From Defluviicoccus sp. (GTDB lineage Bacteria; Pseudomonadota; Alphaproteobacteria; MPNO01): DNA of 64,000 nt. The position numbers were made by a program, and so were the translations under genes. The stretch covers positions 1-64,000 of the forward strand of contig JAJEHI010000171.1 in NCBI GenBank assembly GCA_022823775.1, given 5' to 3'. Shown piece by piece: positions 17,247 to 22,386 of this stretch (positions within the stretch are counted from its first letter, which is position 1; each line of letters begins with the position of its first letter). The notes under the pieces are model-generated. The model was not told the origin of the DNA. It worked only from the letters and a program-made list of their open reading frames with translations, and ran no database searches.

Positions 17247-17755
17247 GCGGGGTCGTCTCGTCCGCCGGCGGCGTCGAGGCGCTGTTGCGGCTCCGCCGGG
17301 TCGAGGAGTTCCTGTTCCACGAGGCCCGGCTGATCGACGAGCGCCGGTTCGAGGACTGGCGCGACCTTTACACCGAGGACGGGATCTACTGGGTGCCCTC
17401 GGAACCAGGGCAGGACAACCCGGTCGACCGGCTGTCGATCTTCTACGAGAACCGGGAGCTGATGGACGTCCGCATCCGCCAGCTTCGGCACAACGCTTTC
17501 TGGGCCCAGATTCCGCCGGTGCGCACGCGTCACGTGATCGGCAACGTGATGCTGGAGGACGGCGGAGACGATGCCGAGGTCCGAGCCCGCTCCTCCTTCG
17601 TGATGCTGGAGTATCGCGACGACCGCCGACGCGTGTTCGGCGGCGAGGCGCGCCACCGGCTGCGCCCGGACGGCGACGGGTTCAGGATCGCCTTCAAGCG
17701 GGTCGACATCGTCGACTGCGACGGCACCCACGGCTTCATGTCGGTGCCGTTCTGA
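17243..17755 (+). CDS. Aromatic ring-hydroxylating oxygenase, beta subunit
   Basis: A 170-residue small subunit of the NTF2/SnoaL-like fold. FLFHEARLIDERRFEDWRDLYTEDGIYWVPS is the family opening, and TRHVIGNVML with SSFVMLEYRDDRRRVFGGEARHRL follows. It packs with the alpha subunit in an alpha3beta3 assembly in known enzymes. Start GTG 17243 overlaps the alpha stop (GTGA), and its own stop overlaps the next start (TGATG), so alpha, beta and SDR are tightly coupled. Confidence 0.9.
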   Translation: MSGVVSSAGGVEALLRLRRVEEFLFHEARLIDERRFEDWRDLYTEDGIYWVPSEPGQDNPVDRLSIFYENRELMDVRIRQLRHNAFWAQIPPVRTRHVIGNVMLEDGGDDAEVRARSSFVMLEYRDDRRRVFGGEARHRLRPDGDGFRIAFKRVDIVDCDGTHGFMSVPF

Positions 17756-18477
17756 TGGCGGGCGCGGCGCTGGTCGTGGGCGCGGGCGATGCGCTGGGCG
17801 GTGCGGTCGCGGAGCGCTTCGCCAAGGGCGGGTTCCACGCGGTGCCGAGCCGCCGCAAGACCGCGCCGCTCGAAGCGCTCGCCCGGCGTATACGAGACGG
17901 CGGCGGCACCGCGACGCCGATCGCCTGCGACGCCCGCGACGAGGAGGCGGTCATCGCGATGTTCGACCGGATCGAGGCCGACATCGCCCCGGTCGAGGTC
18001 GCCGTCTTCAACGCCGGCGCATGGCACAACGCGCCGATCGCGGAGATGACCGCGCGCATCTACCGGCAGGTGTGGGACACCGCGGCCTTCGCGGGCTTCC
18101 TGGTCGGGCGCGAGGCGGGGAGGCGCATGGTCGGGCGCGGGTCCGGCACGATCGTCTTCACCGGGGCGACCGCGAGCCTGCGCGGCGGGGCGGGCTTCGC
18201 CGCCTTCGCGGGCGCCAAGTTCGCGTTGCGCGCGCTGGCCCAGGCCATGGCGCGGGAGCTCGGGCCGATGGGCATCCACGTCGCCCACATCGTCGTCGAC
18301 GGGCGGATCGACTCCGAAGCCGTCAGGGAACGGTTCGCCGACGAGATCGCTACGTCGGGCGAGGACGCGCTGCTCAAGCCGGCGGCGATCGCCGAAACCT
18401 TCTGGTCCGTCCACGCCCAGCCCCGCGACGCCTGGACCTTCGAAACCGAGGTCCGGCCGTGGACTGAGCGCTGGTAG
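17755..18477 (+). CDS. SDR-family protein with altered catalytic residues
   Basis: A 240-residue Rossmann-fold protein. The nucleotide-binding loop is VVGAGDALGGAVA (residues 7-19), and FNAGAWHN (Asn86) matches the usual NAG motif. The canonical catalytic Tyr is replaced by Phe (Phe151 in GFAAFAGAKFAL) while Lys155 is kept, and the Ser position is Ala138. A known SDR subgroup shows such losses, so it may be an atypical reductase or non-catalytic. The gene overlaps the oxygenase beta stop. In dioxygenase operons the partner SDR normally dehydrogenates the cis-diol, which this protein may not do by the standard mechanism. Confidence 0.85.
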   Translation: MAGAALVVGAGDALGGAVAERFAKGGFHAVPSRRKTAPLEALARRIRDGGGTATPIACDARDEEAVIAMFDRIEADIAPVEVAVFNAGAWHNAPIAEMTARIYRQVWDTAAFAGFLVGREAGRRMVGRGSGTIVFTGATASLRGGAGFAAFAGAKFALRALAQAMARELGPMGIHVAHIVVDGRIDSEAVRERFADEIATSGEDALLKPAAIAETFWSVHAQPRDAWTFETEVRPWTERW

Positions 18478-18728: not shown

Positions 18729-20045
18729 TCACATCATCCCGGGCAAATAGAGCGCCGTCGCGGGCACCAGAACGATGATGGCGAGGCGGACGACGTCGCT
18801 CAGCACGAACGGCAGGACGCCCATGAAGGTGTGGTTCATCGGCACGTCGTCGGCCATCGCGTTGATGACGAATATGTTGAGGCCGAAGGGCGGGGTGATC
18901 ATCCCCATCTCGACCGCCATCAACGCCAGGATTCCGAACCAGACGCCGACCTGATCGGGGGTCAGGCCGAGGTCGAGCGAAGACACGATGGGGTAGAAGA
19001 CCGGCATCGTCAGCAGCACCATCGCGAGCGCGTCCATCACGCAGCCGAGCAGGATGTAGATCAGCAGCATCGCCGCGATGATCAGGAGCGGAGGCGCCTC
19101 CAGCCCGAGGACGACCTGTCCGAGCTCCTGCGGCATCTGGGTCAGCGCCAGGAACGCGTTGAAGATTTCCGCCCCCATCAGGATCAGGAAGATCAGCGCC
19201 GTGGTCTCGGCGGTATCCACCAGGCACTCGCGCAAGCCCCGCCACCTCATCCCGCCCACGGTCACGGCCAGCACGCCGACCGCCGCCGCGCCGATCGCCG
19301 CCCCCTCGGTCGGGGAAAACCAGCCCAGATAGATCCCTCCGACCACCAGCACGAAGACCAGCGCCGTGGGCCAGATCTCCTGCAGGCTCGCGATCTTCTC
19401 GCGCCACGAGACGCGCGGCGCGGCCGGTCCGGACTCCGGCGAAAGCCGCACATAGACGGCGACGACGATCATGTAGCCGACGGTCGCGATGATCCCGGGG
19501 ATCAGGGCGGCGAGGAAAAGGTGGCCGATGGACTGCTCGGTATAGACCGCATAGATGACCAGGATCACCGAGGGCGGGATCAGGATGCCGAGGGTTCCGC
19601 CGGCGGCCAGCGTGCCGGTGGAAAGCGCGTCCGAATACCGGTAGCGCCGCATTTCGGGGAGCGCCACCTGGGACATCGTCGCGGCGGTGGCGAGCGAGGA
19701 GCCGCAGATCGCGCCGAACATCGCGCAACCGCCGACGGAGGCGATGGCGAGCCCGCCCCGCATGTATCCGAACCAGGCGCTCGCGGCGCGGAACAGGGCC
19801 CGGTTGAGCCCCGCCTTGGTCGCGAACTGACCCATCAGAAGGAATAGCGGCACCACCGACAGGGTGTAGGACGAGAACCGGCTGTAGGTCGAGTTGTTGA
19901 GCGTCTTGATCAACGGGTCCCAGCCGACCAGCAACACGTAACCCAACCCGCCGATGAACAGCATCGCGAGCCCGACCGGCATGCGCAGCGCGATCGCGAC
20001 GAGCGTGACCGCGAACAGCACCAACCCCATCTCGAAGCCGCTCAT
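18729..20045 (-). CDS. TRAP transporter large permease (DctM family)
   Basis: A 438-residue inner-membrane protein with about 12 hydrophobic segments. Family stretches are GLNRALFRAASAWFGYMRGG, GTLGILIPPSVILVIYAVYTE and MITPPFGLNIFVINAMADDVP. The ATG at 20045 overlaps the dctQ stop by four bases (ATGA) and gives the expected length. With dctQ and dctP upstream on the same strand it forms a second complete TRAP system, not closely similar in detail to the one at 7.6-10.5 kb. Confidence 0.92.
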   Translation of the reverse strand: MSGFEMGLVLFAVTLVAIALRMPVGLAMLFIGGLGYVLLVGWDPLIKTLNNSTYSRFSSYTLSVVPLFLLMGQFATKAGLNRALFRAASAWFGYMRGGLAIASVGGCAMFGAICGSSLATAATMSQVALPEMRRYRYSDALSTGTLAAGGTLGILIPPSVILVIYAVYTEQSIGHLFLAALIPGIIATVGYMIVVAVYVRLSPESGPAAPRVSWREKIASLQEIWPTALVFVLVVGGIYLGWFSPTEGAAIGAAAVGVLAVTVGGMRWRGLRECLVDTAETTALIFLILMGAEIFNAFLALTQMPQELGQVVLGLEAPPLLIIAAMLLIYILLGCVMDALAMVLLTMPVFYPIVSSLDLGLTPDQVGVWFGILALMAVEMGMITPPFGLNIFVINAMADDVPMNHTFMGVLPFVLSDVVRLAIIVLVPATALYLPGMM

Positions 20046-20608
20046 GACGCCCGCCCGCCGGCCTGCCGGGACTCCCGCATGTGTCCGATCGAGCGCAGCA
20101 TCGAGTAGATGCAGGCGAGCGACCATGCGATGCAGCCCATAAAGGCGAGCGCGTAGCCCCACCATTGCGGGATGCGCAGGAACATCGATGCATCGGAAGC
20201 GTGAAAGGTAGCGATCCCGCCGACCGCGAGGCGCCAGGTGACGATCAGAATGCAGACCGAGAAGATCGCGTTCATCGTCGCGTCGAGACCGTCGCGCGCC
20301 GCCTGGCCGAGCCTGGCGGTGAAGAAATCGACGATCACGTTCGCCGCCCGCATCTGGCAATAGGGCATGAAGGAGAAGATCGCGATCGCGCAGCCGAGCT
20401 CCACAATCTCCTGGTCGCCGAGCACGGGCAGATCGAACCCGGTCCGCCCGACGACGCTGATCACGGTGAACGCGGTCATCGCCAGGAGCACGATGCCGCC
20501 GAACACGGCGAGCGCCTCGCTGAATGCGAACAGGGCCGCGCCGAAAGGCTCGTCACGGGGAGCGGAAAGACGCTGTCTCGACCCGCCCCCCGGTTCGATC
20601 TCCGCCAT
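20042..20608 (-). CDS. TRAP transporter small permease (DctQ family)
   Basis: A 188-residue protein with four hydrophobic segments. VVGRTGFDLPVLGDQEIVELG is the typical first loop, and QMRAANVIVDFF precedes helix 3. It begins 3 bp after the dctP stop and ends inside the dctM start, so the dctPQM set is one operon. Confidence 0.88.
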   Translation of the reverse strand: MAEIEPGGGSRQRLSAPRDEPFGAALFAFSEALAVFGGIVLLAMTAFTVISVVGRTGFDLPVLGDQEIVELGCAIAIFSFMPYCQMRAANVIVDFFTARLGQAARDGLDATMNAIFSVCILIVTWRLAVGGIATFHASDASMFLRIPQWWGYALAFMGCIAWSLACIYSMLRSIGHMRESRQAGGRAS

Positions 20609-20611
20609 GCG

Positions 20612-21643
20612 TTACCGGCGGTACTTCTTCGCCAGCGCCAGCAGGTCGGCGAACATCTGCTTGCCGTTCAGACCCTTGGCGTCCATGTCCCCGATCCATG
20701 CCTGATGGGCGCCGCGCGCGGCCGCCCGCCAGCGGGCCTCTTCCTCCGCCGAGAGCGTGATGATCTCGTTGCCCTTCTTGCGCGCGATCTCGCGGCCCGG
20801 AGCGGCGCCTCCGTCCCACAGCTTCCCGTAGCGCTTGGCGTACGCCTTGCCGGTGCTCATCTCGACCGCCTTTTTCTGTTTGGCGTCGAGCTTGTTCCAC
20901 GTGCCCATGTGCATCACGGTCAAGAGCAGGGAGTGATAGATCTTCACGTCGGTGTGGAACTTCGTCACCTCGGCGTATTTGAATGGGATTGTGATCAGCC
21001 ACGGGATCAGCATGCCCTGGGTCTGGCCGCGCGCCAGCGACTCGTAGACCGCGGGCAGCGGCATCTGGACCGGGACTCCGCCCAGCGCCTTCACCGCCAT
21101 GCCGATATAGCGCCCGGCGACCCGCAGCTTCAGCCCCTTGATGTCCTCGAGCTTGCGGACCGGCCGCTTGGTGGTGTGCAGGATGCCGATGTCGATGGCG
21201 TTCAGCGTGACGAGCTTGACGGTCTTGAACTCCCGGTGCGCGTACTTGTCGACCCAGTCCCAGGCGACCTGGCTGAAGGCCTCGCCCGTGTCGCCGATGA
21301 ACGGGAGTTCCAGCGCGGTCAGGATCGGGAACCGGCCCGCATGATATCCGGGCAGCGTATAGGACATGTCGACGACGCCGTTCTCCGCCTGCGCGATCAG
21401 GTCGCGCGGCTTTCCGCCCAGCGCCATGCCGTAATAGACCTGGAGCGTCAGCGTGTTGCCGGAATGCGTCTCGAGATCCTTTTTGAGCGGCTCGAAGATC
21501 CACCTGGTCTCCGGCTGCTTGGGCGAGCCGAAGGTGTGAAGCTTCATCTTTATCGTCTCGGCCCCGGCCGTGCCCGCGCCGAGAGCGAGCCCCGCGGCGG
21601 CGGCGAGCGCCATCCCCTTCAGCATCGTTCCATAAGCCGTCAT
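20612..21643 (-). CDS. TRAP transporter solute-binding protein (DctP family)
   Basis: A 343-residue periplasmic receptor. A signal peptide of about 28 residues ends AGAETIKMK. The DctP core LEDIKGLKLRVAGRYIGMAVKALGGVPVQMP is present with the ligand-contacting Arg, and a C-terminal LLALAKKYRR tail follows. It is the first gene of the second dctPQM operon; upstream lies a 473-bp intergenic region with a GC-rich repeat and two parS sites. The ligand is unknown. Confidence 0.9.
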   Translation of the reverse strand: MTAYGTMLKGMALAAAAGLALGAGTAGAETIKMKLHTFGSPKQPETRWIFEPLKKDLETHSGNTLTLQVYYGMALGGKPRDLIAQAENGVVDMSYTLPGYHAGRFPILTALELPFIGDTGEAFSQVAWDWVDKYAHREFKTVKLVTLNAIDIGILHTTKRPVRKLEDIKGLKLRVAGRYIGMAVKALGGVPVQMPLPAVYESLARGQTQGMLIPWLITIPFKYAEVTKFHTDVKIYHSLLLTVMHMGTWNKLDAKQKKAVEMSTGKAYAKRYGKLWDGGAAPGREIARKKGNEIITLSAEEEARWRAAARGAHQAWIGDMDAKGLNGKQMFADLLALAKKYRR

Positions 21644-21742
21644 GTCCCTTCCTCCCTCGATCGTTACCGGCGCACCGCGCGGCAGCGCCGTCTTTCGCGA
21701 GACAATCCTAGAGCCTGTCCGTTCCGCTTGGAACCGCCGGCG

Positions 21743-21806
21743 TCCCTCACGCCGACTCCTCCCTGCCTTCCCCCCTCCCGCTTGCGGGAGGGGCCGGGGA
21801 GGGCGA
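21743..21806. repeat. Composite GC-rich palindromic repeat, copy 3 (partial)
   Basis: The module CCTTCCCCCCTCCCGCTTGC with GGGAGGGGCCGGGGAGGG forms one hairpin; the second module seen in copies 2, 4, 5 and 6 is missing. It lies in the long gap upstream of the second dctP gene. Apart from this repeat and the parS sites, the gap 21644-22116 shows no gene. Confidence 0.65.
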
Positions 21807-22046
21807 GTGTGCGGGTCCGCGCTTCGTCGCGGCTATGTCAACCATGGTTGACAGTGCGGCAACCGGGCGGCGTCATCCGGGCGGCCGCGCCGGTTTCCCG
21901 AACCGGTCCGGCAGCAATCCCCGCCAAGGCACTGGCGCGGCGGGGAGACTCGCCGTCGCGTCCGCGCCGCCCGGCGTCCGGACGGGGCGGACGGGGGAGC
22001 GGTTGCGTCCCCCGGGGACACGAAAAATAGTACCGTTTCGGGACAA

Positions 22047-22062
22047 TGTTTCACGTGAAACA
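22047..22062. promoter_or_regulatory. parS site 1 (ParB-binding centromere sequence)
   Basis: The perfect 16-bp palindrome TGTTTCACGTGAAACA equals the bacterial parS consensus bound by ParB; an extra A/T pair extends it to 18 bp. It is intergenic, 70 bp beyond the stop of the zinc-ribbon gene. Confidence 0.92.
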
Positions 22063-22083
22063 TAGGTCAACAATACTGTCCTT

Positions 22084-22099
22084 TGTTTCACGTGAAACA
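22084..22099. promoter_or_regulatory. parS site 2 (ParB-binding centromere sequence)
   Basis: A second perfect TGTTTCACGTGAAACA, 37 bp from the first (start to start). Two exact 16-bp copies this close cannot be chance in a GC-rich genome. No parA or parB gene is in the window. Confidence 0.92.
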
Positions 22100-22116
22100 T
22101 GGGGGGCCGCCGCCCC

Positions 22117-22386
22117 TCAGTCGAACAGCACGTCGTCGAGGAAGGGGTCTTCGGGGAGCGCGGTCTCGCTGTCGAGCAGGGCGCCGCAGGCCGGGCAGGC
22201 GAAGCGGCGGAGCACCACCCGTTCGCCGCCGCTGTAGGGCACGCCGGCGGCGCCGCGCATCGGGATCTCGGTCATCGCGGCGTGCCGCTTCCACGGCGCG
22301 CCGGCGGGCCCGAGCGCATGGCCGCATTTGCGGCAGCATATCTCGCCCGCTTCGATCTCCAGCGTGGTGGAGAAGCGCCGGCTCAT
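22117..22386 (-). CDS. Acetone-carboxylase-gamma-like zinc-ribbon protein
   Basis: An 89-residue protein with two Cys pairs, CCRKCG near residue 19 and CPACG near residue 67, suggesting a bound zinc. It ends DPFLDDVLFD. Its small size, Cys pairs and position after hydantoinase A and B genes resemble the gamma subunit of acetone carboxylase, although its sequence match is by pattern only. The ATG overlaps the hydantoinase B stop (ATGA). It is probably a third subunit of the same enzyme. Confidence 0.7.
   Translation of the reverse strand: MSRRFSTTLEIEAGEICCRKCGHALGPAGAPWKRHAAMTEIPMRGAAGVPYSGGERVVLRRFACPACGALLDSETALPEDPFLDDVLFD

Follow-up and report, generated by a model that had tools for sequence, protein, structure and literature searches.

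The 64-kb stretch of DNA analysed here (the window) is the start of a 194,107-bp contig, C98, in a 198-contig, 4.8-Mb draft genome of Defluviicoccus. A gap between a TRAP transporter gene and an acetone-carboxylase-gamma-like gene contains a pair of parS sites and several associated elements, as follows.

20612-21625, minus strand: dctP, TRAP transporter solute-binding protein DctP, flanking the parS gap
21836-22100, plus strand: full-length copy of a genus-specific interspersed repeat, with the parS pair as its right end
21836-21853: left-end palindrome of the repeat, TGTCAACCATGGTTGACA, related to the inner repeat palindrome
22004-22022: GC-rich hairpin, TGCGTCCCCCGGGGACACG, kept among copies of the 265-bp repeat
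22023-22044, minus strand: GTCCC/GGGAC stem with TATTTTT after it, resembling a terminator; degenerate in this copy
22047-22062: parS copy 1, TGTTTCACGTGAAACA, exact match
22064-22082: inner inverted repeat AGGTCA-N7-TGTCCT (family consensus AGGTCA-N7-TGACCT), imperfect, centred between the parS copies
22084-22099: parS copy 2, TGTTTCACGTGAAACA, exact match, 37 bp start to start from copy 1
22117-22386, minus strand: acetone-carboxylase-gamma-like gene, on the other side of the parS gap

A pattern search of the window bore out the first-pass annotation, which had reported twin perfect parS sites at this spacing in an intergenic gap. No third match to TGTTTCACGTGAAACA was found within the 64 kb at up to three mismatches, and shuffled sequences gave a chance expectation of 0.01 matches. 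The acetone-carboxylase-gamma-like gene has its 3' end facing the pair, with its stop codon 18 bp from parS copy 2. The GC-rich repeat that had also been mentioned for this gap is real, but it proves to be one part of the larger interspersed repeat; the inner inverted repeat, the left-end palindrome and the genome-wide repetition of the whole unit had been overlooked. A scan of the gap for sigma-70 promoters and terminators called nothing, the GTCCC/GGGAC stem included.

The 16-bp parS consensus, TGTTNCACGTGAAACA, is matched exactly in the window and at 35 places genome-wide. Allowing up to one mismatch gave 44 parS-like sites, 35 of them exact, compared with none for a reversed control pattern; a few of the 44 look accidental, lying within genes or without a composite. 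Upstream of gidA, contig C3 carries three parS, with a fourth between this gene and gidB, and the end of contig C103 encodes the C-terminus of gidB, then parA and parB. These two contigs are presumably adjacent, because gidB is split across both, and the gid-par cluster is intact in three other genomes (G002, G004 and G001). The same TGTTTCACGTGAAACA 16-mer is found in the window pair and at the gidA-gidB-parA-parB cluster of this genome. Three genomes from the same order, G011 (complete), G006 and G009, have exactly two parS each, one in the gap between mnmE and gidA and one where gidA meets gidB. The copy in the mnmE-gidA gap of G006 has one mismatch, and both copies in G011 coincide with the minimum of the cumulative skew. 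The ParB encoded by our genome is of canonical type: it contains LGRGL and GERRWRA, and its HTH region can be aligned to Caulobacter ParB. The same 16-mer is bound in vitro by ParB of the alphaproteobacterium Hyphomonas neptunium (PMC6650430). The presence of the 16-mer at the gid-par cluster of this genome and its order-mates, the canonical ParB, and the near-invariance of the palindrome in a drifting repeat (see below) all uphold its original reading as a ParB site. On this evidence, the window sites are genuine parS of the lineage. Genes for PIN-domain (VapC-like) proteins (L016:2610-3026 and L031:8926-9354) adjoin two parS composites, including the triple beside gidA.

This abundance is a feature of the genus. 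Its five species, all represented by fragmented MAGs, carry 44 (this genome), 25, 61, 28 and 37 parS-like sites; the sister genus has 2, and other genomes of the order have 0-5, mostly 2. In comparisons with three congeners, many parS loci proved to be shared by at least two species, the number of parS at a given place ranging from one to three. The C51 locus is filled here but empty in G002, with 390 bp between the homologous flanks compared with 88 bp on G002 contig C121. Short forms are found in other species at two loci, in G002 at the locus on C101 and in G004 at the window locus. In a comparison of 18729-22010 of the window with G004 (L038), the TRAP transporter operon beside the parS pair is absent from G004, and the SDR gene found at about 17700-18477 in the window directly adjoins the element; this comparison places a rearrangement breakpoint at the element in G004. 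A tree of full copies mixed cross-species pairs with species-specific groups, at low support.

The 265-bp element holds several GC-rich hairpins. Eight full copies matched the 265-bp query in this genome (79-100% identity) and about ten did so in G002. Shorter types in the genome include forms of about 95 bp, bare composites of about 53 bp, and a single parS followed by the inner repeat. Some copies lack a sharp left end. Composite loci are intergenic, usually just downstream of stop codons, and in 10 of the 12 composites of callable orientation the parS side points toward the gene 3' end, often within 20 bp. On C4 (L017:9376) and C179 (L034:126), near-identical flanks surround a single parS with the inner repeat; TTATCCATCGCATGAAGAAA comes next, giving the element a second type of end.

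We found no target-site duplications around the copies, as candidate matches were no longer than those of shuffled pairs (2.28 compared with 2.70), and no clear terminal inverted repeat by eye in the alignment of copies; nor do we know of any transposase that accompanies the repeat. In these respects the element does not resemble a transposase-mobilised MITE, although orthologous loci are occupied in some species and empty in others, as would be expected of one. A structured RNA gene was rejected, given that the RNA consensus fold is nearly without covariation (term -0.47) and an Rfam search returned weak chance matches only. Phage and plasmid collections yielded no relatives of the element, and the literature searched contains no description of parS in Defluviicoccus or in repeat families.

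Within the repeat, the parS letters stand apart. Across 17 full copies from two species, 1 of 544 parS bases departs from the consensus; the corresponding share is 4-5% in the inner arms, 24% in the inner N7 and, for most of the remaining segments, 7-24% (Fisher test of parS against all else in the repeat, p=2.6e-24). This difference points to use of the palindromes, with ParB as the simplest candidate user, and to selection that holds the parS letters constant as the surrounding repeat drifts. The same count bears on whether the element is simply a REP- or MITE-like family in which ParB makes no use of the parS-like palindromes, these being incidental or serving termination or another regulator. 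Such a family would account for copies that are interspersed, hairpin-rich, intergenic and mostly situated by gene 3' ends, many of them with a terminator-like stem. However, it would leave unexplained why parS is far better conserved than the remaining repeat, hairpins included, and why the palindrome is identical to the gid-par parS, and the near absence of RNA covariation and of any credible Rfam match also speaks against it. We consider this reading improbable.

The composite itself has the architecture parS / AGGTCA-N7-TGACCT / parS, and all close parS pairs in the genome are exactly 37 bp apart start to start. A composite with the inner repeat is also found at gidA/gidB in two genomes from another family, G055 and G185. 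Three more genomes of the class (G241, G330 and G256; L080-L082) have parS at 37-bp spacing with unrelated spacers, two of them as pairs between mnmE and gidA and the third as an array beside mnmE. That array, in the 1.8-Mb alphaproteobacterial genome G256, consists of at least six perfect tandem parS with a 37-bp period (L080:9889-10089), begins directly after mnmE and reaches the contig end; the G256 genome has 17 close parS pairs. A triple parS with a 34-bp period is found in G396, from another alphaproteobacterial family (L083:9932-10015), with no gid-par gene in the surrounding 20 kb. A scan for the exact composite in a collection of 84,980 species genomes returned essentially this genus and G055. 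Two further matches lie on contigs L041 and L059, binned as a Vicinamibacteria MAG; at 97-99% identity to this genome, they probably reflect MAG contamination. One more, in an alphaproteobacterial MAG, shares 96% identity with a locus of this genome. The genus suggests a preferred 37-bp geometry for paired ParB nucleation, one that recurs in other alphaproteobacterial families. It is very likely that twin parS held at this spacing function together as a single nucleation unit.

The symmetry between the two parS raises a further possibility, namely that AGGTCA-N7-TGACCT is the binding site of a second protein that cooperates with ParB at the composites. Its arms are more constrained than its loop, it is exactly centred, it occurs in two alphaproteobacterial families, and the left end of the repeat carries a related palindrome. 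Against this, parS at the same spacing do without it in other families, its function may be no more than to preserve symmetry, spacing or the potential to form a cruciform, and no candidate protein emerged. The suggestion is compatible with the explanation that we favour below, and we offer it tentatively, as somewhat unlikely.

Taken together, the data are probably best explained by a dispersed repeat that has multiplied composite centromere sites specifically in this lineage. The composite would provide two ParB nucleation sites 37 bp (about 3.5 helical turns) apart around a symmetric inner repeat. From known ParB biology, ParB dimers would load on each parS, become CTP-bound sliding clamps and recruit ParA and SMC, with the two parS of a composite serving as a single nucleation point. 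The composite probably descends from the ancestral parS beside gidA/parAB and has, in this genus, become the business end of a repeat (about 265 bp in full, about 95 and about 53 bp in short forms). Copying or gene conversion would then have carried the repeat to about 25 intergenic loci, with selection preserving the parS letters against drift of the remaining repeat. The sequence identity, the fixed spacing, the repeat family, the copy numbers, the orthologous and empty loci and the constraint on parS are direct observations; ParB occupancy, any function of the inner repeat and the mechanism of copying are our inferences.

The first-pass annotation had further proposed that the window should be origin-proximal, which our results do not support. 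A whole-genome pattern search found no parS on the 194-kb contig other than the window pair, and parAB lie on C3/C103. In a mapping to G011 that used 39% of that genome, had no control contigs and relied on uncalibrated gene-order conservation between families, the orthologues of 11 genes on the window contig lie at a median of 1.27 Mb from the origin, compared with about 16 kb for the gid-par genes. In the same mapping, 34 genes near other sites have orthologues that are spread uniformly relative to the origin (median 890 kb, KS p=0.57). This origin-distance test is a weak one, because the genome is a draft in 198 contigs. Since the genus carries 25-61 sites, a parS pair is in any case no marker of the origin.

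These distances also bear on a more conventional layout, in which the sites form an ordinary origin-proximal parS cluster that has been enlarged, with all copies, the window pair included, within a few hundred kb of oriC. The sites do show significant short-range clustering, with 5 gaps of less than 5 kb between neighbouring loci compared with 0.6 expected (p=0.0002). HslU/Smr and polA, which are often origin-proximal in this class, flank two of the sites. In addition, parS elsewhere cluster near the origin, and Caulobacter and Pseudomonas tolerate extra parS only within about 500-650 kb of it, with sites outside that range being harmful (PMC5815017, PMC7333895). Against such a cluster, the window contig carries a single pair, and the G011 orthologues are uniform or distant, subject to the uncalibrated gene order. 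We regard the enlarged cluster as a serious possibility, though one with less than even chances. At the other extreme, the composites may lie all around the chromosome, so that ParB and SMC would load at two dozen or more dispersed centromeres, giving a 'polycentric' chromosome derived from a selfish or domesticated centromere-carrying repeat; we think this extension of dispersed-repeat multiplication somewhat unlikely.

The sites resemble the chromosomal parS of the ParABS systems of Hyphomonas neptunium, Caulobacter and Bacillus in their identical 16-bp palindrome, the ancestral copies beside gidA-gidB-parA-parB and the canonical ParB, but differ in numbering 25-61 rather than a few, in forming 37-bp composites with an inner repeat, and in being carried by an interspersed repeat. 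Many parS per chromosome are also known from Streptomyces coelicolor and Listeria innocua (20-23 sites) and Myxococcus xanthus (22). The Streptomyces and Listeria sites are described as lying near the origin, whereas the genus studied here has up to 61, with no origin bias outside gid-par in the weak mapping to G011; in the literature searched, none of these multi-parS chromosomes is described as owing its sites to a repeat family. The element is also like REP/BIME and MITE-type repeats in being short, non-coding, intergenic, palindromic and dispersed, with loci occupied or empty between species, but it lacks a detected target-site duplication or clear terminal inverted repeat and carries functional-looking centromere sites that appear to be under selection.

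We conclude that the notable point is the apparent multiplication of composite centromere sites by a repeat within one genus, beyond the 20-23 sites of the richest genomes described (PMC7333895). The review literature asks what causes centromere sites to become more numerous (PMC7333895), and the true site layout in this genus is worth knowing, because elsewhere extra parS are tolerated only within about 0.5-0.65 Mb. This sponge-type genus offers a natural experiment, in which 2 sites appear to have become 25-61 by way of a repeat, with closely related species at different stages and the sister genus in the ancestral state.
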